Assembly (NCBI GenBank): GCA_030054035.1
Contig: JASGCS010000003.1
Location: forward strand, 42,047-106,046
Reading direction: 5' to 3'
DNA length: 64,000 nt
From: Candidatus Methylacidiphilales bacterium
GTDB taxonomy: Bacteria > Pseudomonadota > Gammaproteobacteria > JASGCS01
The position numbers and the translations under genes were made by a program. The notes under the pieces were generated by a model that saw only the letters and a list, made by a program, of their open reading frames with translations, ran no database searches and had not been told where the DNA came from. Within the stretch, counting starts at the first letter, position 1. Each line of letters opens with the position of its first letter. Below, in pieces: positions 1 to 9,533 of the stretch.

Positions 1-135
1 TGCTTGCACTAGAAAGTAATAATAAAAGCAATAACAAAGGCGGAGTGCTTGCGCTAGAAAGTAATAATAAAAGCAATAACAAAGGCGGAGTGCTTGCACT
101 AGAAAGTAATAATAAAAGCAATAACAAAGGCGGAG
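1..135 (+). repeat. 45-bp tandem repeat inside a coding frame, three copies
   Basis: Three head-to-tail 45-bp units lie at 1-45, 46-90 and 91-135. They are nearly identical; the visible difference is a G/A change in the ninth base. A fourth, diverged start of a unit follows at 136. The unit length is a multiple of three, so copy-number change would keep the frame. Each unit encodes a 15-residue segment, VLALESNNKSNNKGG. The array runs off the left edge, so the copy number is unknown. Confidence 0.9.
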
Positions 136-371
136 TGCTTGCGCTTGATAGTTATCATAAAGGTGAACTTCTTTCACAAGGTTTTTTTGGTAATAAACCT
201 ATTCCTAAAGAAGAGTTTGACAAGCCCTTTACCAGCAACCATCTCAGCTACCTACTTCAGCAAAAAATCATTGATGGATATGCAAAAAATTCAAGTGAAA
301 TAGTATTTTATAAAAATCATCATACACTTTATAGGCGTCCATTACAGGCTACAGATACCTGTTGTGATTAA
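3..371 (+). CDS. 3' end of a repeat-containing protein of unknown function (5' partial)
   Basis: The frame is open from base 3 to the stop at 369-371, and the true start lies left of the window. A GTG at 45 is only a repeat codon and is not a convincing start. The visible protein has Asn/Lys/Ser-rich 15-residue repeats followed by about 75 non-repetitive residues (GELLSQGFFGNKPIPKEEF onward) ending in a Cys-Cys-Asp. I do not recognise the family. It sits just upstream of a type I restriction operon on the same strand, so it may belong to the defence island. The repeat looks like a low-complexity linker or a phase-variable length region; that is inference. Confidence 0.5.
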   Translation, partial: LALESNNKSNNKGGVLALESNNKSNNKGGVLALESNNKSNNKGGVLALDSYHKGELLSQGFFGNKPIPKEEFDKPFTSNHLSYLLQQKIIDGYAKNSSEIVFYKNHHTLYRRPLQATDTCCD

Positions 372-420
372 ACGATTCTCCCCACCCAACAGCGTGGATT
401 CGTACCCTCTATTTGGTCGT

Positions 421-426
421 TATAAT
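421..426 (+). promoter_or_regulatory. Candidate -10 box for the restriction operon
   Basis: A perfect TATAAT lies at 421-426, which puts a transcription start near 433, just ahead of the ATG at 455. No good -35 hexamer is visible 16-18 bp upstream. The box argues against translation from the TTG at 413, because that codon would lie upstream of the transcript start. Confidence 0.35.
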
Positions 427-454
427 ATATAAGAATGTTCAAATAGATATAGTC

Positions 455-2953
455 ATGAAAGATAAGCTTAAGAAAAACAATGAAGCCACAGCGCGAATAA
501 AAATAAATAAACTGCTTGAGCAAGCTGGATGGCGACTTAATGATTCAGAAAAAAGTAGAGCGAATGTTATACTTGAAGCAGGTGTGCGACTTCAAGACGC
601 AGGAGATAATTATGAAAAAACAATAAATGGGTATATAGATTATTTACTTTTAGACGATAATAATTATCCTCTTTGCGTACTTGAGGCAAAAAGCAGCAAC
701 ATTCATCCACTATCTCCAAAAGAGACTCAAGCACGCCCATATGCGAAAGGAAAAAACTGCCGATTTGTGATTTTATCAAATGGAGATTCCCATTACTTTT
801 GGGATATTGAATCTGGAAACCCAGAAATTATTACAGAATTTCCAACACAAGCGACATTACTTCACCGTATAAAAAATAAATACAACACATCAGATCTTGT
901 TTCTGAAATTATTGATAGTAAATATTTAGAACCAAAGAAAACCCTACGAGGGTATCAAGTTGAGGCTATTCACGCTATTCAAAAGGCCGCTAAAGAAGGA
1001 AAGAGAAGATTCCTCTTGGAAATGGCGACAGGTGCAGGTAAGACGACGACATCTGGGGCTATTTGTAAGTTATTTCTCCGTACTGGTAATGCTAGCCGTA
1101 TTCTTTTCCTGGTTGATCGTATTGAGTTAGAAACACAAGCTTTAAATGCACTCAAGAATTTATTTGATGGGCAATATTTTGTTGAAAAATTCAAAGATGG
1201 TAATTGGGATCGTGGTCACATTGTGATTTCTACTGTACAGACACTGTTGGCTGGTAACAAATATCGTGAATATTTTTCACCAACAGATTTTGATCTCGTT
1301 ATTTCTGATGAAGCGCATCGTTCTATAGGCAGTAATTCACGAGCAGTATTTGAATATTTTCTAGGCTATAAGTTAGGTCTTACTGCAACACCGAAGGATT
1401 ATCTTAAGGGCGTGGATGAAAGAGAGTTAATAAAGAAAAATATAAAAGCTTATGAGTATAGAAATTTAAGGGATACCTACACTACTTTTTCTTGTGAGGA
1501 CGGCATTCCTACATACAGGTATGACCTTAGAAAAGGTGTTGCGGATAATTTTCTAATCAATCCCTTTGTTATTGATGCTCGCACGGAAATTACTACAGAG
1601 CTAATTTCTAAAGAAGGTTACTCTATGCAAGTTGAAAATGAAGATGGTGGAATAGACGATGTATTTTACTTTGCGAAAGATTTTGAGAAAAAATTCTTCA
1701 ATGACGATACTAATCGTGTATTCTGCGAAACAATCTTGAATAACGGACTCCTAGACCCACTAACTAATGAATTTGGCAAGACGCTTGTTTTTTGTGTGAG
1801 TAAATCCCATGCATCAGATATTGTAAATCTATTAAATTCTTTAGCCGATAAAAAATGGCCAAATAAATATCAAAGTAATTTTGCCATTCAAGTAACAAGT
1901 GGTATTGGCGAAGAGCATAAATACACAAAGGATTTTGCAAACAATAGACTTAAAGAGAAGTCACAATTTGCCCATGATACTCATCCAGACTATAACACTT
2001 CAAAGGCTCGTATTTGTGTAACAGTAGGCATGATGACAACTGGTTATGATTGCCCAGACTTATTAAATATTGTATTGCTTCGCCCTATATTTTCCCCTAC
2101 CGACTTTATACAGATGAAAGGCCGTGGAACTAGAAAGTATACTTTTCTTTATCAAGAAACAGGAGAAAGTAAAACAAAAGATAAATTTATCCTTCTTGAT
2201 TTCTTTGCTAACTGTCAATATTTTGAAAAAGATTTTGACTACAATAAGAAAATAACCTTACCTATTTCTAAAGACGGCACTAAAAACTCACTTAAAGACC
2301 CAACTCCAAATACAACTAATATCCTAGACAGCGTAGATGCAGAAACACCAGATACTATCGCAACAATAACACAAATATACATTGGGGTAGAAGGAATGAA
2401 AATTGACAGAAGTTTGTATCCTTACCAACAGTTTGAGCAAGTGATACAAGAAAGTAAGACTCTTAAGAGAATAAAAGAAGAGCAGGGACTAGATGGACTT
2501 GAGGAGTATATTAAAGCCGAGGTATTTAATAAACCTACTGAGTATTGGAGTGCAGAAATGATTCGGCAATCTTACGAAAGGGAATATCAAACTAAGAGAA
2601 AAATTAGCCTAATGGAAATGATCCTCAAAGCTCTCGGAATGCAGAATGATTTCAAGAGTAGAGATGAAAGGGTAAACGAAGAATATCAAAAATTTATTGA
2701 TATCCAGAGACCACAGATAGCAGAAGATCAAGTTGAACAAGTAACCATACTTAAAAAATTCTTTGAGACTTTTGTTTCAGATCCCATATTCAGAGGTATG
2801 ATTAACAAGAAAGAATATGCAGGTATTTCCGTATATCCATCCTTCAATATGCAAGAGTTGCAGGTTCTGGGTGATTTAATTGAAGATGCGTCAAACTATG
2901 CCAATGAATATCTTCAAAGAGAAATGGCTGAATTTGATTGGGAGAATAAATAA
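455..2953 (+). CDS. hsdR: Type I restriction enzyme, R (endonuclease/translocase) subunit
   Basis: This is the motor and nuclease subunit of a type I restriction-modification enzyme, which cuts unmodified DNA after ATP-driven translocation. The N-terminus carries a PD-(D/E)xK-like nuclease pattern: Asp in YIDYLL near residue 60 and Glu-Ala-Lys near 76. Helicase motifs follow in order: Walker A MATGAGKT (about 190), DEAH (about 284), the GLTATP motif III, and QMKGRGTRKY motif VI (about 552). The C-terminal part resembles the EcoEI-R type C-terminal domain. An upstream in-frame TTG at 413 would add 14 residues, but ATG 455 is preferred because of the TATAAT at 421. Its stop shares a base with the start of the next gene (TAATG), indicating coupled translation. 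At 832 residues it is on the short side for HsdR. Confidence 0.9.
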   Translation: MKDKLKKNNEATARIKINKLLEQAGWRLNDSEKSRANVILEAGVRLQDAGDNYEKTINGYIDYLLLDDNNYPLCVLEAKSSNIHPLSPKETQARPYAKGKNCRFVILSNGDSHYFWDIESGNPEIITEFPTQATLLHRIKNKYNTSDLVSEIIDSKYLEPKKTLRGYQVEAIHAIQKAAKEGKRRFLLEMATGAGKTTTSGAICKLFLRTGNASRILFLVDRIELETQALNALKNLFDGQYFVEKFKDGNWDRGHIVISTVQTLLAGNKYREYFSPTDFDLVISDEAHRSIGSNSRAVFEYFLGYKLGLTATPKDYLKGVDERELIKKNIKAYEYRNLRDTYTTFSCEDGIPTYRYDLRKGVADNFLINPFVIDARTEITTELISKEGYSMQVENEDGGIDDVFYFAKDFEKKFFNDDTNRVFCETILNNGLLDPLTNEFGKTLVFCVSKSHASDIVNLLNSLADKKWPNKYQSNFAIQVTSGIGEEHKYTKDFANNRLKEKSQFAHDTHPDYNTSKARICVTVGMMTTGYDCPDLLNIVLLRPIFSPTDFIQMKGRGTRKYTFLYQETGESKTKDKFILLDFFANCQYFEKDFDYNKKITLPISKDGTKNSLKDPTPNTTNILDSVDAETPDTIATITQIYIGVEGMKIDRSLYPYQQFEQVIQESKTLKRIKEEQGLDGLEEYIKAEVFNKPTEYWSAEMIRQSYEREYQTKRKISLMEMILKALGMQNDFKSRDERVNEEYQKFIDIQRPQIAEDQVEQVTILKKFFETFVSDPIFRGMINKKEYAGISVYPSFNMQELQVLGDLIEDASNYANEYLQREMAEFDWENK

Positions 2954-5352
2954 TGCTTAACACAACCATTAAGCAACAAATCAATACAGTAAGAGATACT
3001 CTTGTTGGTAAGATTCCAGATCCAAAGGGGCAAATTGACCAAATAACCAACGCACTCATCTATAAATTTATGGATGATCTTGACACGCAGTCATGCGCAC
3101 TACCAGGTGGCAAGGCAAGTTTTTTCACGGGAGACCTAAAACCCTATGCATGGCATAAGCTATTTAATCTAAAATTATCTAACCAAGATAAGGCTGATTT
3201 ATATATTATAGGTATTGAAAAACTTTCAACAGCAAAACATTTACCTGTGCTTTTTCAAGATATTTATAAAGACGCCTTTTTGCCGTTCCGTGCACCAGAT
3301 ACTATTGCGTTGTTTTTAAATGAAATCAATAAATTTGGCTATCAACACAGCGAAGACCTAGGTAATGCTTTTGAATACCTGCTCTCCATCATGGGCTCGC
3401 AAGGTGACGCAGGGCAATTCCGCACCCCTAGGAACATTATTGAGTTCATTGTCGACGCAGTTAATCCAACAAAAGACGAGACTATCTTAGACCCTGCCTG
3501 CGGAACAGCTGGATTTCTAGTAGAAGCATATAAGCATATTACAAAAGACAAAAAGCTAAATCCAAAAGAAATGCAAGAACTTGCAAAACATATTCACGGT
3601 GTAGATATAGCCCCTGAAATGGCAAAGATTGCCAGAGTAAACCTCTACCTCCACGGATTCAAAACACCTTTAATAACAGAAAATGACACACTCACCGATG
3701 AAAAACTTTGGGGCACTAAATACGATGTCATATTAGCCAATCCACCATTCATGACACCAAAAGGTGGAATAGTACCTCACGACAAATTCAGTGTAAATTC
3801 AAATCGGGCAGAGGTACTATTTACCGACTATATCGCAGAACATCTAAAACTAACAGGAAGAGCTGGCATAGTCATCCCAGAAGGTATCATTTTTCAATCT
3901 GGTAAAGTTTATAAACAACTTCGCAAGATGTTAGTTGATGATAATTATTTATCCGCAGTGATTTCATTGCCAGCAGGCGTATTCAACCCATACAGCGGAG
4001 TAAAAACCTCCATACTCCTCCTTGACCGCAAACACGCAGCACAAAATAAGGAAATATTATTTATCAAGGTTAATAATGATGGGTTTGATTTAGGCGCACA
4101 AAGGCGAGAAATAAATAAAAATGATTTGCCAGCAGCTTTAGAAATACTGGATAAATGGAAAACTAACGAGAAAGTAGAAAACAAAATAGCAGTGTATGTA
4201 GAAAAAACCAAGATTGCCGAAAACGGGGATTATAATCTATCTGGTGATCGTTATCGTGCAACAAACAATTACACTAATGCTAAATGGCCTATGGTTAAGT
4301 TGGGGGAAATTGCAGAAATTATGAAAGGCTCTGCGATAACAAAAAAAGACACACAGCTAGGAAATATTCCAGTAATTGCTGGCGGACAAGAACCTGCTTA
4401 TTATCACAATAAATCAAACAGAACAGGCGACATAATAACTGTTAGTGCTTCAGGAGCTTATGCTGGCTTTGTAAATTATTTCACTATTCCAATCTTTGCT
4501 TCCGATTGTTCAACAATACAAACAAAGGATGATAGTAAGGTACTTACGAGATATCTTTTTGGCATTCTTAAATCGAAACAAAATTCTTTATATGAATTTC
4601 AGCAAGGTGGCGGCCAACCACATGTTTATCCAACTGATTTGAAAACAATATTAATCCCTCTCCCACCTCTTGAAATCCAAGAGCTAGTCGTCGCAGAGCT
4701 GGACAGTTATGCAGGCATCATCGCAGGAGCCAAACAAATCATCAAAAACTGGAAACCAAAAATTGACATTGATCCGGAGTGGGAGATGGTTAAATTGGGT
4801 GAATTTTGCAAAATTGAAAGGGGTGCATCTCCTCGCCCAATAGACAAGTTTATGACTGATGATCCAAATGGTTATAATTGGGTAAAAATTGGAGATACCA
4901 AAAACGCTGATAAATATATTACACAAACGGCAGAAAAAGTAACTAAAGAGGGAGCGGAAAAATCCCGCAAAGTTTTTGTAGATGATTTTGTGCTTTCAAA
5001 TTCAATGAGTTTTGGACGACCATACATAATGAAAATTGAGGGCTATATTCATGACGGCTGGTTAAGATTAAGCGAAGATCCTAATAAAATTGAGAAGGAT
5101 TATCTCTATTATATTTTGAGTTCTGATTTCGTAATTGAGCAATTTGAAAATGCTGCAACGGGTGGAGTGGTTAGAAACCTGAATTCAGAATTAGTGAGAA
5201 AAGTTGAAATTCCTCTCCCACCTCTCACAATCCAAAAACAAATCGTAGAAAAAATTGAAGCAGAGCGCACTCTCGTCGAATCCTCCAAAAAGCTAATTGA
5301 TATATACGAACAAAAAACCAAAGAAGCGATTGCTAAACTTTGGTCAGAATAA
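2953..5352 (+). CDS. hsdM: Type I restriction-modification M-S fusion (methyltransferase plus specificity)
   Basis: One 799-residue polypeptide joins the adenine methyltransferase and the DNA-recognition subunit of the type I enzyme. The HsdM part has the N-terminal helical domain, the SAM-binding motif DPACGTAGF (about 180) and the catalytic NPPF (about 262). From about residue 443 two HsdS-like target-recognition domains follow. Each starts with a W-x-MVKLGE-like phrase and ends in the conserved spacer helix LPPLxIQ (about 570 and 756). Two TRDs would specify a bipartite asymmetric site. The start overlaps the hsdR stop by one base. Type I M and S subunits are usually separate genes. I see no stop or frameshift at the junction, so the fusion looks intended rather than a sequencing artefact. 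Confidence 0.88.
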   Translation: MLNTTIKQQINTVRDTLVGKIPDPKGQIDQITNALIYKFMDDLDTQSCALPGGKASFFTGDLKPYAWHKLFNLKLSNQDKADLYIIGIEKLSTAKHLPVLFQDIYKDAFLPFRAPDTIALFLNEINKFGYQHSEDLGNAFEYLLSIMGSQGDAGQFRTPRNIIEFIVDAVNPTKDETILDPACGTAGFLVEAYKHITKDKKLNPKEMQELAKHIHGVDIAPEMAKIARVNLYLHGFKTPLITENDTLTDEKLWGTKYDVILANPPFMTPKGGIVPHDKFSVNSNRAEVLFTDYIAEHLKLTGRAGIVIPEGIIFQSGKVYKQLRKMLVDDNYLSAVISLPAGVFNPYSGVKTSILLLDRKHAAQNKEILFIKVNNDGFDLGAQRREINKNDLPAALEILDKWKTNEKVENKIAVYVEKTKIAENGDYNLSGDRYRATNNYTNAKWPMVKLGEIAEIMKGSAITKKDTQLGNIPVIAGGQEPAYYHNKSNRTGDIITVSASGAYAGFVNYFTIPIFASDCSTIQTKDDSKVLTRYLFGILKSKQNSLYEFQQGGGQPHVYPTDLKTILIPLPPLEIQELVVAELDSYAGIIAGAKQIIKNWKPKIDIDPEWEMVKLGEFCKIERGASPRPIDKFMTDDPNGYNWVKIGDTKNADKYITQTAEKVTKEGAEKSRKVFVDDFVLSNSMSFGRPYIMKIEGYIHDGWLRLSEDPNKIEKDYLYYILSSDFVIEQFENAATGGVVRNLNSELVRKVEIPLPPLTIQKQIVEKIEAERTLVESSKKLIDIYEQKTKEAIAKLWSE

Positions 5353-5358
5353 ATATGT

Positions 5359-6108
5359 ATGAAAACTGATCATCTCATTCTTAAAATTGTCAATAGATGG
5401 ATTGGTGTTAGTGGCGGGTATTTGGGATTGCCTGAAAATAGGCGTTTTACATATTATACCCATAAGACATTTTATCCAGAATATTGCAGTCTAGATAAGG
5501 ATCCTTATCTGCTTTCTGGAACAACGAAAGATAAGTTTATTAAAATATTTGAATTATCAACTCCAAGAGAAAAGGCTAAGATTATACGTGGTGTAATTGA
5601 AAAATTTCCTATATGTGAAGAAGTTAAAGAGAGAACAAATTCACTTAAAAATGAGTTGTTAGAGGAAGCTAAAAAATTAGAAAAAGAAGATTATATTAGC
5701 ACCCCAGATATTAAAGAAGGGCATATATTGGAATTAATTAAGGATGCCGATGCGCTCAAACAAAATAGAAATGCAAGTAGTGCCTTGGATCGTTTGCATA
5801 CAGCATTTCATGGTTATTTAAGGGAGTTGTGCGATGATGAAGATATATCACATAAGGAGGGAGACGGGCTAGTCTATTTGATGAAACAACTTCAATGCAA
5901 GCACCCAAAACTTAAAGTGAAGATAAAATCTCAAGAGACCCAAAACATAATAAATAATCTAGTCTCCATTTGTGATTCACTTAATCCTATGCGTAATCAA
6001 GCAAGTCGAGCTCATCCAAATAAGATTGTTGCAGATGAACCTGAAGCGGTTCTTGTGATAAATTCAATAGTAACGATAGTAACCTATTTGTCAGCAAAAT
6101 TGAAATAA
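5359..6108 (+). CDS. Abortive-infection family protein (Abi_C domain)
   Basis: A 249-residue protein starts 6 bp after the M-S fusion and is probably cotranscribed with the restriction genes. The C-terminal half (about 140-249) matches the Abi_C pattern: a HTAFHGYLRELC helix, then HPKLKVKI, and a final segment with LNPMRNQASRAHPN, whose RxxxxxH-type helix recalls HEPN-like RNases. The N-terminal half is charged and unassigned. Proteins of this family are found in phage-exclusion loci. The biochemical activity here is inference. A 19-bp sequence covering the start region (5355-5373) recurs with two changes just after the gene (6113-6131). Confidence 0.7.
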   Translation: MKTDHLILKIVNRWIGVSGGYLGLPENRRFTYYTHKTFYPEYCSLDKDPYLLSGTTKDKFIKIFELSTPREKAKIIRGVIEKFPICEEVKERTNSLKNELLEEAKKLEKEDYISTPDIKEGHILELIKDADALKQNRNASSALDRLHTAFHGYLRELCDDEDISHKEGDGLVYLMKQLQCKHPKLKVKIKSQETQNIINNLVSICDSLNPMRNQASRAHPNKIVADEPEAVLVINSIVTIVTYLSAKLK

Positions 6109-6125
6109 CATCATGTATGAAGATT

Positions 6126-6280
6126 GATCATGCCCCATCGTCTGTACAATATTAATGATTAGATTAATGGTCTTGCAAACCTACCGCACTTCAGAATTGC
6201 ACAGGTGATTGATACTTGAGAGCACTGTGTGGTCATACCTAATTGATATACTTCTAATTGTTACTAATCTTTTCTCTATA
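6126..6280 (+). mobile_element. Decayed IS3-family end fragment (copy 1)
   Basis: From TGATCATGCCCCATCGTCTGT onward the sequence is a diverged copy of the left end of the element at 9029: the terminal repeat, the intervening bases and the last codons of the minus-strand transposase. Similarity ends near 6280, where the type III restriction relic begins. No intact reading frame remains. It is one of at least two remnants of the same element flanking the ATPase/RloB-like genes, both in the same orientation. Confidence 0.65.
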
Positions 6281-6285
6281 TCAAC

Positions 6286-6700
6286 AATTAGAATATTGAA
6301 AGATGAATTTGATATGTATCTTTTGAATAATGCAATTGATGTCTTTGGTATAGAGTATCAAAAAGTAACAAACACTTTTCATCCAACAAAACATACCAAC
6401 GCAAAAGGAGAAGTGGTGAATGAAATCAATACCTATAATGTTGGAATACTGTATTCTGATGAAGCGGTAGCAACCAATTATTTATTTGATAATATTTTTT
6501 TAAGACAGCGAATTAGAGAAAAACAATATTAAAACAACTATTTCTGAAGTAATTATTTTTACCATAATTCCGAAAAATCTATCAAGATACCAGTGGCAGG
6601 AGGGAAAAGATATTCCCCTGATTATGCATATGTTTTAAATATTGAGAATGGAGAGAAAAAACTATATTTCATCGTAGAAACAAAAATATTGGCGATTTAA
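6286..6700 (+). pseudogene. Relic of a type III restriction enzyme Res subunit (C-terminal part)
   Basis: Read across frames, this stretch recalls the C-terminal region of type III Res subunits. One frame gives NNAIDVFGIEYQ and HPTKHTNAKGEVVNEI, stopping at 6532. A second frame gives ISEVIIFTIIPKN near 6540-6585. A third gives IKIPVAGGKRYSPDYAYVL and LYFIVETK, ending in a stop at 6698. The known family has this order: a phrase around IPxxxSIxIPVAGG, then SPD, then VETK. At least two frameshifts and the missing N-terminal helicase and C-terminal end make it a dead fragment. The apparent ORF 6209-6532 is a chimera of the IS remnant and this relic. Confidence 0.6.
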
Positions 6701-6936: not shown

Positions 6937-8277
6937 GTGATTCATTACCTAAAATTTAAAAATATCTATTCATTAAGAGAGGAATTTATTTTAGATTTAA
7001 GGGCAGATAGTCGCTCACCTGATTCAAATAGATATATAAAATCACAATATAACCCAGAAATAAGACTATGCAAAATCATAAATATAATGGGAGCGAATGC
7101 TTCAGGCAAATCAAACATACTTAAAATATTCAAATATATCAAATTCTTACTAGCAGATTCTTGGATCTTGTCAAAAGAAATCCAAAATCAGCAAGTGCAA
7201 CCAAATCAAACAGTACCATTTCCTTTAATAATCAAACCTTTTGTTTTAAGCACCGATCCAGTAATCCTTAATAAACCAAGTGCTATTGAAATTGCATTTG
7301 AATTAAATTCAACGCTCTTCACCTATGCAATCTCTATAAAAAATGAAATAATTCAAGAAGAAACATTGACTTCCACAAAGGCAAACAAAACAGTCATTTA
7401 TTTCAAACGAAAACTATCTGCTTCACAAGACATTCTCAAAGTAGAAATTGATAATTTGGTCAATAAACATGACCAATGGGATTTTCACAGAAAACTCAAT
7501 AATAAAAATTCTTTTATGCACACCTACTATGATGTGCTTTTAGACTATTCAATAAAATCCAATAAAAAAACTCAAGAAGTAATAGATACATTTAAAAATA
7601 AATTAGACTATGAATTATTCTTTAATTTCTGGAGTAGAAGTATTATAAATATCCCTCAAGTAGAAATTAATAAGTCGCTAACAACCTCCAATTGGGAACT
7701 TTTTGCATTTCGATTCTATGATAACCCTCAAAACATTCTCTATAAACAAAAAGCAAGAGACTACATTTCACGTTTAGATACTTCAGTTAATAATTTTTTT
7801 ACTGAAAAATATTCTAATCCTGTCTTTGGCGATCAATTTAGAATAGATTTTACTATTAATAAAGATGGCACAGATTTTAGACTCAATTATGCAGATATGT
7901 CTTCTGGCACTAAATCCCTTCTCCTTCTATTAGGGGCATGGTTTTTTGCATTAGATAATAACCTTCCGATCATTTTAGATAACTTTGATAGTGATCTTCA
8001 TCCAGATATCATCAGCGAGCTTATAGACCACTTCTGTTCGTATGATAATCCCCCTTCAAACAGCCAACTCATCATTGCGGGTCATGCTTATACTCTCCTT
8101 AATCAATTAGACAAATACCTTCACTACTTCACAAATAAAAACAATGAGCAAGAAACCATATTATTCAGATTATCAGATTACAAAACAGTGGAACATCAAG
8201 TCTCACCACGCACCGATGATAACTATTATAAAAAATATAGAAGTGGTAACTATGGAGCAAAACCATACATTACTTAA
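6937..8277 (+). CDS. AAA/ABC-type ATPase, RloA-like defence protein
   Basis: A 446-residue single-chain ATPase of the AAA_15/AAA_21 (OLD/SMC-like) group. Walker A GANASGKS is near residue 51, the signature-like MSSGTKS near 318, and a Walker B-type PIILDNFDSDLHP near 344. The family normally has Asp-Glu in Walker B, but here the residue after the Asp is Asn. A GHA follows where the H-loop histidine is expected. The second gene starts within 4 bp of this stop, so the two are translationally linked. In related defence loci such ATPases act as sensors for a partner nuclease. The GTG start at 6937 begins the usual MxxLxFKNIxS opening. Exact substrate is unknown. Confidence 0.75.
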   Translation: MIHYLKFKNIYSLREEFILDLRADSRSPDSNRYIKSQYNPEIRLCKIINIMGANASGKSNILKIFKYIKFLLADSWILSKEIQNQQVQPNQTVPFPLIIKPFVLSTDPVILNKPSAIEIAFELNSTLFTYAISIKNEIIQEETLTSTKANKTVIYFKRKLSASQDILKVEIDNLVNKHDQWDFHRKLNNKNSFMHTYYDVLLDYSIKSNKKTQEVIDTFKNKLDYELFFNFWSRSIINIPQVEINKSLTTSNWELFAFRFYDNPQNILYKQKARDYISRLDTSVNNFFTEKYSNPVFGDQFRIDFTINKDGTDFRLNYADMSSGTKSLLLLLGAWFFALDNNLPIILDNFDSDLHPDIISELIDHFCSYDNPPSNSQLIIAGHAYTLLNQLDKYLHYFTNKNNEQETILFRLSDYKTVEHQVSPRTDDNYYKKYRSGNYGAKPYIT

Positions 8278-8280
8278 TTG

Positions 8281-8835
8281 ATGCAATCAGAGTTAATAAG
8301 ATCAATTCTCATCATTGCTGCTGGAAATAGTGAATATGAGTTTCTACAAAAAGTAAAACCTATTATTAATCCCAATATTAGAAATTCTAATTGTAAAGTA
8401 GATATAAAACGAAGCGATAATAGTAGCAATGGAAGCATTCCTAAAATGCTTGACTATTGCAATCGAATCAGTATTGACTTGAATTATGATGAAAAATATG
8501 TAGTAACTGATTATGATAGATGTTTAGCTAACTCAGAGGAAAATGAAGCAAATACACTTAGTGAGAGATTAAATATTAAAATCCTTTACAATCGTCCAAG
8601 CTTGGAAGCAACTATTTTAACAATCCTCGACAGCAATAAAAAAACATATTATCAAAATCAAAAAACAGATAAATTAAAAAAAGAATTGAGAAATACTATT
8701 GATTTTAGTAAAAGTACTCATTCAATATCTGGGCTGATTAGCTCGTCGAAATTTAACCCCACCCTTGAACAATTGAAGAATGTCAGACAAAACCTTGCAA
8801 TCATAGAAGATTTATTCAATATATTTAACAATTAA
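8281..8835 (+). CDS. RloB-like (TOPRIM-related) partner protein
   Basis: A 184-residue protein starts at ATG 8281; a TTG at 8278 directly abuts the ATPase stop. The opening ILIIAAGNSEYEFL resembles the first strand and acidic turn of RloB/TOPRIM-like proteins, although the first acidic residue of the usual E-G pair is Ala here. VVTDYDRC near residue 80 supplies the D-x-D-type motif, and NRPSLEATIL corresponds to the late conserved helix of RloB proteins. Rlo genes were named as ORFs linked to hsd restriction loci, which fits the neighbourhood. A nuclease role activated by the ATPase is inference by analogy with ATPase-TOPRIM defence pairs. Confidence 0.6.
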   Translation: MQSELIRSILIIAAGNSEYEFLQKVKPIINPNIRNSNCKVDIKRSDNSSNGSIPKMLDYCNRISIDLNYDEKYVVTDYDRCLANSEENEANTLSERLNIKILYNRPSLEATILTILDSNKKTYYQNQKTDKLKKELRNTIDFSKSTHSISGLISSSKFNPTLEQLKNVRQNLAIIEDLFNIFNN

Positions 8836-8861: not shown

Positions 8862-8939
8862 TGACCTTCCCCCCTAAAACTGTGCCAAATCTTCGGAGAG
8901 TTTTATAGTGACCTTTCCTCCTAAAGACTAAGCCATTTT
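8862..8939. repeat. Two tandem IS-end-like sequences
   Basis: TGACCTTCCCCCCTAAAACT (8862 on) and TGACCTTTCCTCCTAAAGAC (8909 on) are two direct, diverged copies of the terminal repeat seen at 9029 and, inverted, at 9505-9533. They are spaced 47 bp apart with no transposase between them. They suggest repeated insertion and decay of related elements just downstream of the RloB-like gene. Confidence 0.55.
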
Positions 8940-8986
8940 CTCAATGAGGTTTCTAGTAAGTTACTATTAAGCAAACAGTAGAGGAG

Positions 8987-9054
8987 ATGGTACAGATGAT
9001 GGGGATCATTATTTGTCTTGTTGCTTATTGACCTTCCCCCATCGTCTGTACCAT
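8987..9054. repeat. Inverted repeat of IS ends
   Basis: ATGGTACAGATGATGGGG (8987-9004) is the reverse complement, with one mismatch, of CCCCATCGTCTGTACCAT (9037-9054). The two face each other across 32 bp. The right arm is the left terminal repeat of the remnant at 9029, and the left arm is an orphan end in the opposite orientation. The transcript could form a long hairpin, but no T-run follows. Confidence 0.7.
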
Positions 9055-9533
9055 TTCTTCGATGAGATTCCTGGTCATACTAACCTACTGCACCCAAGAA
9101 TTGCATGGGTGATTGTTACTTGAGTGCGCTATGTGGTCGTGCTTCGTTGAAATACTTCTGATAGTTACTAATCTTTTCTCTGGCATCTTGAATATTTTTG
9201 AAGTACTCTTGATTGAGTAGTTCATTTCTAAACTTACCATTGAAACTTTCAACAAATGCGTTTTGGGTTGGTTTTCCTGGTTGGATAAATCCAAGTGCTA
9301 CCTATGATCTTCCTTGAGTAATCATCAATGACATTAAGAATTCTGATTCGCCTACCATTTTCCAATTGATCTGCAACAAAATCCATAGACCATCTGGAAT
9401 TAACACTGGTTGCAGGAAGGAGTACTGACCTTGTTTTGTACCTCTTTTTCTTACTTAAATCCTCAGTTTTGGTTTATTTTAATTTACTATAAACCTCACC
9501 TACGATTTGGTACAGTTTTAGGGGGAAAGGTCA
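9029..9533. mobile_element. Internally deleted IS3-family element (copy 2)
   Basis: Terminal repeats TGACCTTCCCCCATCGTCTG (9029 on) and, inverted, the sequence at 9505-9533 ending GGGGGAAAGGTCA bound a 505-bp element. Both ends begin TGACCTT and share TGTACCA. The interior is a transposase relic on the minus strand with a large internal deletion. No clear target duplication is visible at the flanks (CTTAT left, ATAGC right). The right end lies only 18 bp from the 3' end of the DprA-like gene. Confidence 0.8.
9117..9476 (-). pseudogene. IS3-family transposase relic (IS407-like DDE integrase)
   Basis: Reading the minus strand, the upstream part gives LLPATSVNSRWSMDFVADQL and NVIDDYSRK, the region of the first catalytic Asp in IS3-family OrfB. 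After a junction near 9298 the frame shifts and gives IQPGKPTQNAFVESFNGKFR and RPHSALK, the region of the catalytic Glu, ending in TAA at 9117. The segment between them, with the second Asp and its SDNG-type motif, is missing. The deletion plus frameshift inactivates the enzyme. Confidence 0.85.

Follow-up and report, generated by a model that had tools for sequence, protein, structure and literature searches.

Our analysis showed that two adjoining genes of the window (the whole stretch of DNA analysed, 64,000 nucleotides long) form a divergent AbiL-type (RloA-RloB) phage-defence module, in which both active sites have lost conserved acids, and are probably crippled by this, while the proteins themselves have been kept. 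We give a probability of about 0.45 to the reading that what remains is a disarmed, ATP-clamped complex, and consider this the likeliest explanation of the pair. The features on which the argument depends are collected in Table 1.

Table 1. Features of the RloA-RloB pair and its surroundings in the window.
Feature	Position	Strand	Remarks
Type I restriction subunit-like gene (hsdR)	413..2953	+	PADLOC REase_I, 1.6e-60
Type I methyltransferase and two-TRD specificity fusion (hsdM-S)	2953..5352	+	PADLOC
Abi_C-domain (AbiJ-like) gene, putative defence gene	5359..6108	+	Pfam Abi_C, 1e-10; PADLOC AbiJ, 4e-8
IS remnant	6123..6277	.	155 nt, 79% identical to 9027-9181
C-terminal remnant of a broken type III restriction (res-like) gene	6278..6686	+	Match to genomic paralogue
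RloA/AbiLi-type ABC ATPase	6937..8277	+	446 aa, GTG start; AbiLi and AAA_21 matches
Walker A GANASGKS	7090..7113	+	ATPase residues 52-59, intact
Signature region MSSGT	7897..7911	+	Residues 321-325; Met replaces Glu321
Walker B Asp348-Asn349 (GAT AAC)	7978..7983	+	Asn replaces catalytic Glu
RloB-like TOPRIM-type protein	8278..8835	+	Up to 185 aa; Pfam RloB, AlphaFold2
TOPRIM motif I AAGNSE	8317..8334	+	Residues 14-19; Ala15 (GCT) replaces predicted metal-A Glu
TOPRIM D-x-D (Asp78, Asp80)	8509..8517	+	Intact
Decayed IS (putative IS3-type orfB remnant)	8862..9533	-	48-nt terminal inverted repeats

The two proteins and their missing acids

Among the defence profiles of PADLOC, the ATPase is matched best by AbiLi (E=5.4e-54) and next by AriA (1e-23), and its Pfam domain is AAA_21 (2.3e-23); the family profile of our survey, which contains the window ATPase itself, matches it with E=1.4e-113. 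Its AlphaFold2 model has a mean pLDDT of 81, and the nearest folds in the PDB are the retron/Septu PtuA ATPases and Rad50/SMC heads. The Walker B motif reads IILDNFDSDLHP, with Asn at residue 349, and the change of Glu321 to Met ahead of the signature further depletes the ABC catalytic set, of which the H-loop His383 and the Walker B Asp348 are retained. Altogether, 23 of 25 near-invariant residues are still in place (Met1, read from a GTG codon, being set aside).

The RloB gene lies directly downstream on the same strand as a separate ORF, its frame beginning TTG-ATG immediately after the TAA stop codon of the ATPase; the ATG at 8281 is a likelier start than the TTG. Pfam RloB matches the protein at 1.1e-6 and 29.5 bits, slightly under the curated cutoff of 31.5 bits, and a family profile of the plasmid and phage pairs matches it at E=9.7e-39, a value inflated by the presence of the window RloB in that profile. 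The PADLOC AbiLii match is weak, and neither Pfam nor PADLOC gave an AriB/DUF4435 match. The AlphaFold2 model (pLDDT 89) finds the OLD TOPRIM domain 6njv as its best, albeit weak, Foldseek match (E=0.008, TM about 0.4). Motif I reads IIAAGNSE, with Ala15 where relatives carry Glu and with Gly16 and Glu19 retained; Glu110 is retained in addition to the D-x-D, and both motif I and the D-x-D line up with those of the relatives in the alignment. Three of the four near-invariant residues of RloB are kept. By the scheme described for OLD nucleases, Glu15, Asp78 and Asp80 would be the ligands of metal A and Glu19 would serve metal B (PMC7049728).

The first-pass annotation of this DNA had described an OLD/AAA_15-type ATPase lacking the usual D-E of Walker B, next to an RloB-like protein without the first acid of its EG motif, and had compared the two with known ATPase-TOPRIM pairs. 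Both residue changes are confirmed here, as Asn349 and Ala15, and the AbiLi profile match and the RloB-type partner place the pair with the RloA-RloB/AbiL kind. Of the checks that it called for, profile searches matched the two proteins to the AbiLi and RloB families, and structure predictions indicate that both fold. The Pfam match of the ATPase is to AAA_21 and not to AAA_15, and the loss of Glu321 is a third one, absent from that annotation.

Pairing and residue losses across homologues

Genes for the ATPase and RloB travel together across phyla. A survey of neighbours, proposed in the first-pass annotation to see whether the pair does so, found an RloB-type gene 3' of the ATPase in 15 of 15 annotated plasmid and phage loci, from Vibrionaceae, Bacteroidota, Enterococcus, Lactococcus, Rhizobiales, Caulobacterales, Sphingobium and Rhodococcus as well as Klebsiella and Stenotrophomonas phages. 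The partner is labelled RloB in 12 of these, 'abortive phage resistance protein' in one and 'hypothetical' in two; both of the latter can be aligned with RloB, and one of the two lacks the N-terminus. The sample was then widened to 222 ATPases, taken from plasmids, phages, viral contigs and genomes. Of the 181 that are non-redundant, 132 have an RloB partner that could be recognised in the stretch covered; a handful of these assignments are doubtful, and contig ends cut off some of the ATPases counted as unpaired.

Walker B is D-E in 178 of the 181 non-redundant ATPases. The three exceptions are the window ATPase, which is D-N and has an RloB, and two ATPases without one, D-D in the same genome and D-G in alphaproteobacteria. 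Since D-E is kept in 131 of the 131 other RloB-paired ATPases, the change in the window is not due to chance; D-N is unique to it among the RloB-paired ATPases sampled and is not a feature of a clade. Over 177 non-redundant homologues, the Walker B Glu is found in 98.9% and the Glu of E-S-x-G-T, equivalent to Glu321, in 95.5%, while 97.2% of 145 RloB homologues carry the Glu of motif I. We also scanned 2.9 million viral contigs with DNA patterns for the stretch from Walker B to the D-loop: no family member was found among the 6 matches to D-N, 21 to D-Q and 36 to D-D, and the D-E pattern gave at least 120 matches in the same contigs, at least 39 of them clear family members (39 of the 80 loci checked). 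Single-protein scans for close relatives of the window proteins returned only matches of 21-36% identity in genome contigs and no match in viral contigs, and the window RloB had no match among plasmids. Within the searched set, no genome is related to this one (1.7 Mb, 16 contigs) more closely than at the level of class.

An RloB on a viral contig (L108:4290-4886) has Q-G in motif I next to an ATPase with a normal D-E, and its Gln appears genuine, motif I having lost its acid independently in this protein. In seven further loci (L144, L147, L155, L148, L207, L213 and L134), a non-Glu motif I is apparently due to misalignment or to a partner that is not an RloB.

The D-D protein is a second RloA-like ATPase of the same genome (L135:6713-8137, minus strand, corresponding to contig C7:10712-12136), with a Walker A of SANGMGKT, a signature of LSFGL and no RloB. 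It adjoins a Ser/Thr protein kinase gene, with a second kinase gene opposite, among repeated putative lipoprotein genes, and is possibly a repurposed OLD-type ATPase. A Walker B change inherited by both ATPases from a common ancestor was considered, as FastTree grouped them with a support of 0.957, on long branches; the grouping was absent from IQ-TREE with a fresh alignment, the best match of the window ATPase is another sequence, and the clade was dropped. In alphaproteobacterial MAGs, L022:5001-6212 and L024:4020-5285 each encode a lone RloA-like ATPase with a D-G Walker B and an EGRGA signature, no RloB adjoining either of them.

Genomic setting and related systems

The pair lies in a defence island, downstream of the hsdR-like gene, the hsdM-S fusion and the Abi_C gene. 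RloA-RloB pairs owe their name to such type I restriction-modification surroundings, and the association of Rlo genes with hsd loci mentioned in the first-pass annotation holds for the window, as does its observation that decayed IS copies flank the pair. The fusion gene is a single frame of 799 aa, in which a methyltransferase (PADLOC MTase_I, 3.3e-95, residues 1-456) is joined to a specificity subunit (Specificity_I, 2.3e-57) with two recognition-domain regions. The broken res-like piece is 81% identical in DNA to G000:C6:18145-18554, part of a much longer paralogue in which a 685-aa open frame with an RE_endonuc domain (L231:1352-3409) reaches the edge of the stretch examined. Beyond the pair, the downstream IS is bounded by inverted repeats (8862-8909 and 9486-9533) that are 88% complementary, is matched in part at 27 places in the genome, its own included, and carries its orfB-like fragments in shifted frames; its assignment as probably IS3-type was read from the translation rather than from a profile match. 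A short frame of the window (45-371) without a Pfam match has an N-terminal tandem repeat of the peptide LALESNNKSNNKGGV.

The AbiL system of Lactococcus is bicistronic and acts by abortive infection; one AbiLii homologue is toxic in E. coli (PMC3985639). The window shares with AbiL/RloA-RloB systems the gene order (ATPase, then RloB-family protein), the best-matching defence profile and the type I surroundings, and its pair is homologous to that of Lactococcus phage proPhi7, which is annotated as abortive phage resistance. It differs from them in that its ATPase is only about 22-26% identical and in that it lacks three acids found in nearly all relatives, Glu349 and Glu321 of the ATPase and Glu15 of RloB. 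PARIS likewise consists of two genes, for the ABC ATPase AriA and the TOPRIM nuclease AriB, but AriA matches the window ATPase less well than AbiLi does, and membership was rejected because the partner has no AriB match. AriB E26A is inactive (PMC12409363); Glu26 probably corresponds to the motif I Glu of RloB, the kind of residue that is Ala in the window. The OLD proteins (P2 OLD, TsOLD, GajA) combine the same ABC ATPase and TOPRIM nuclease chemistry, and the best, though weak, fold match of the RloB model is to a TOPRIM domain of this family; they are fusions, whereas the window has two proteins, with catalytic acids missing from both. WonAB and PtuA (Septu, retron Eco7/Ec78) also join an ATPase sensor to a nuclease, PtuA being the closest solved fold to the window ATPase, but their nucleases are of the PD-(D/E)xK (WonB) and HNH (PtuB) types and not RloB/TOPRIM.

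Disarmament, decay or residual function

Over the 631 codons of RloA and RloB there are no stops and no frameshifts, and each of the altered codons (ATG, AAC and GCT) is at least two base changes away from any Glu codon. Under a simple model of mutation, 6.1% of changes placed at random in the pair create a stop, so that about 6 stops should have accumulated at a neutral divergence of 0.05 per site. The intact frames, in spite of codons that required several substitutions and of the stops expected under neutrality, therefore argue, without proving it, that selection was acting on the frames while the acids disappeared, or that the pair was acquired from a lineage where it had already changed in this way. 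They also speak, together with the near-invariant residues kept in the ATPase, against Asn349 being a lone mutation in an otherwise decayed gene, one of the two outcomes that the first-pass annotation named as fatal to its proposal; the other, homologues that never co-occur, is contradicted by the survey of neighbours. GC contents at codon positions 1 and 2 are 0.37/0.28 and 0.33/0.30 in the pair and 0.45-0.54/0.31-0.38 in its neighbours, which is compatible with transfer or with rapid evolution. This AT-richness even at the first two codon positions, the broken IS and type III restriction genes nearby and the disappearance of conserved catalytic residues from both genes would fit early pseudogenes, which lost their function recently and are drifting in an IS-rich genome with their frames still unbroken. 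We rank this reading third and think it rather unlikely, given the distance of each altered codon from Glu, the several stops that comparable neutral drift would bring in the same model, and the integrity of all the remaining near-invariant residues.

In the disarmed complex that we favour, RloA would still bind ATP, as its Walker A, Asp348 and His383 are intact, and would close into an ATP-bound dimer, in which hydrolysis would be very slow or nil without the Walker B and pre-signature Glu residues. RloB would keep a TOPRIM fold and remain able to bind the ATPase but, short of one metal-A ligand, would be a weak nuclease at best. Such an ATP-clamped complex would no longer be toxic, and any leftover role would lie in binding (sensing, sequestering or interfering) rather than in cutting. 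Mutations in related systems point in the same direction: WonA E300A, probably at the equivalent of the Walker B Glu, abolishes defence by WonAB (PMC12137116); P2 OLD E398A, in which the metal-A Glu is lost, abolishes killing, and the metal-A triple mutant of TsOLD is reduced 12-15 fold (PMC7049728); AriB E26A, as mentioned above, is inactive; and PARIS no longer defends when the residues predicted to be catalytic in its ATPase or TOPRIM are mutated (PMC9122126). The intact frames fit awkwardly with disarmament, however, since they imply selection for some activity. By analogy, activity may persist in the window pair despite its losses: TsOLD metal-A mutants still nick plasmids (PMC7049728), the OLD ATPase GajA acts although no hydrolysis of ATP can be detected (PMC10568477), and Cran1 is tolerant of changes in Walker B (PMC12796447).

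GajA and TsOLD are also the precedents for a working variant, close to what the first-pass annotation had in mind, in which ATP would be held as a latch and not as a fuel, as in engineered Glu-to-Gln traps, until a phage trigger opened the complex and RloB cut slowly by means of Glu19, Asp78, Asp80 and Glu110. The retained motifs and frames agree with this, RloB having kept Glu19, in the metal-B position of the OLD scheme, together with the D-x-D and Glu110. We nevertheless rank it only second, as a doubtful, if serious, contender: no other RloB-paired homologue sampled shows D-N, the single Glu changes above abolish defence, and the loss of three acids exceeds what a timer needs. Slow hydrolysis with release upon triggering is possible, but the idea leaves the damaged nuclease unexplained; the RloB set free in this way would probably have little or no activity because a metal-ligand Glu has been lost from it as well. 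Least probable by far is that the pair is an AbiL system of the ordinary kind, fully active, with other residues standing in for the missing acids, for example RloB Glu19 or Glu21 and a shifted carboxylate near the ATPase Walker B. Acids do lie nearby in the sequence (Glu19 and Glu21 of RloB, Asp351 of the ATPase), but Glu19 and an acid at position 351 are common in relatives that have them alongside the missing Glu and are thus not replacements for it, and no compensating change was seen in 177 ATPases and 145 RloBs. We attach rather little likelihood to a further conjecture, a pseudoenzyme defence module transferred from an unsampled lineage, in which an AbiL-type complex would have been maintained by selection after catalysis was lost in both halves, acting through ATP-locked binding only, for example to a phage trigger or host factor that it sequesters.

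The window pair represents a known type of system, exceptional for the loss of catalytic acids from both halves, and its interest is modest unless activity is demonstrated. If it is inactive, it is a caution that profile-based defence finders may call a catalytically dead system intact. With its frames kept and a catalytic Glu missing from each half, the pair is a natural test of defence without hydrolysis or cleavage; alternatively, it shows how ATPase-TOPRIM systems get disarmed in host genomes.
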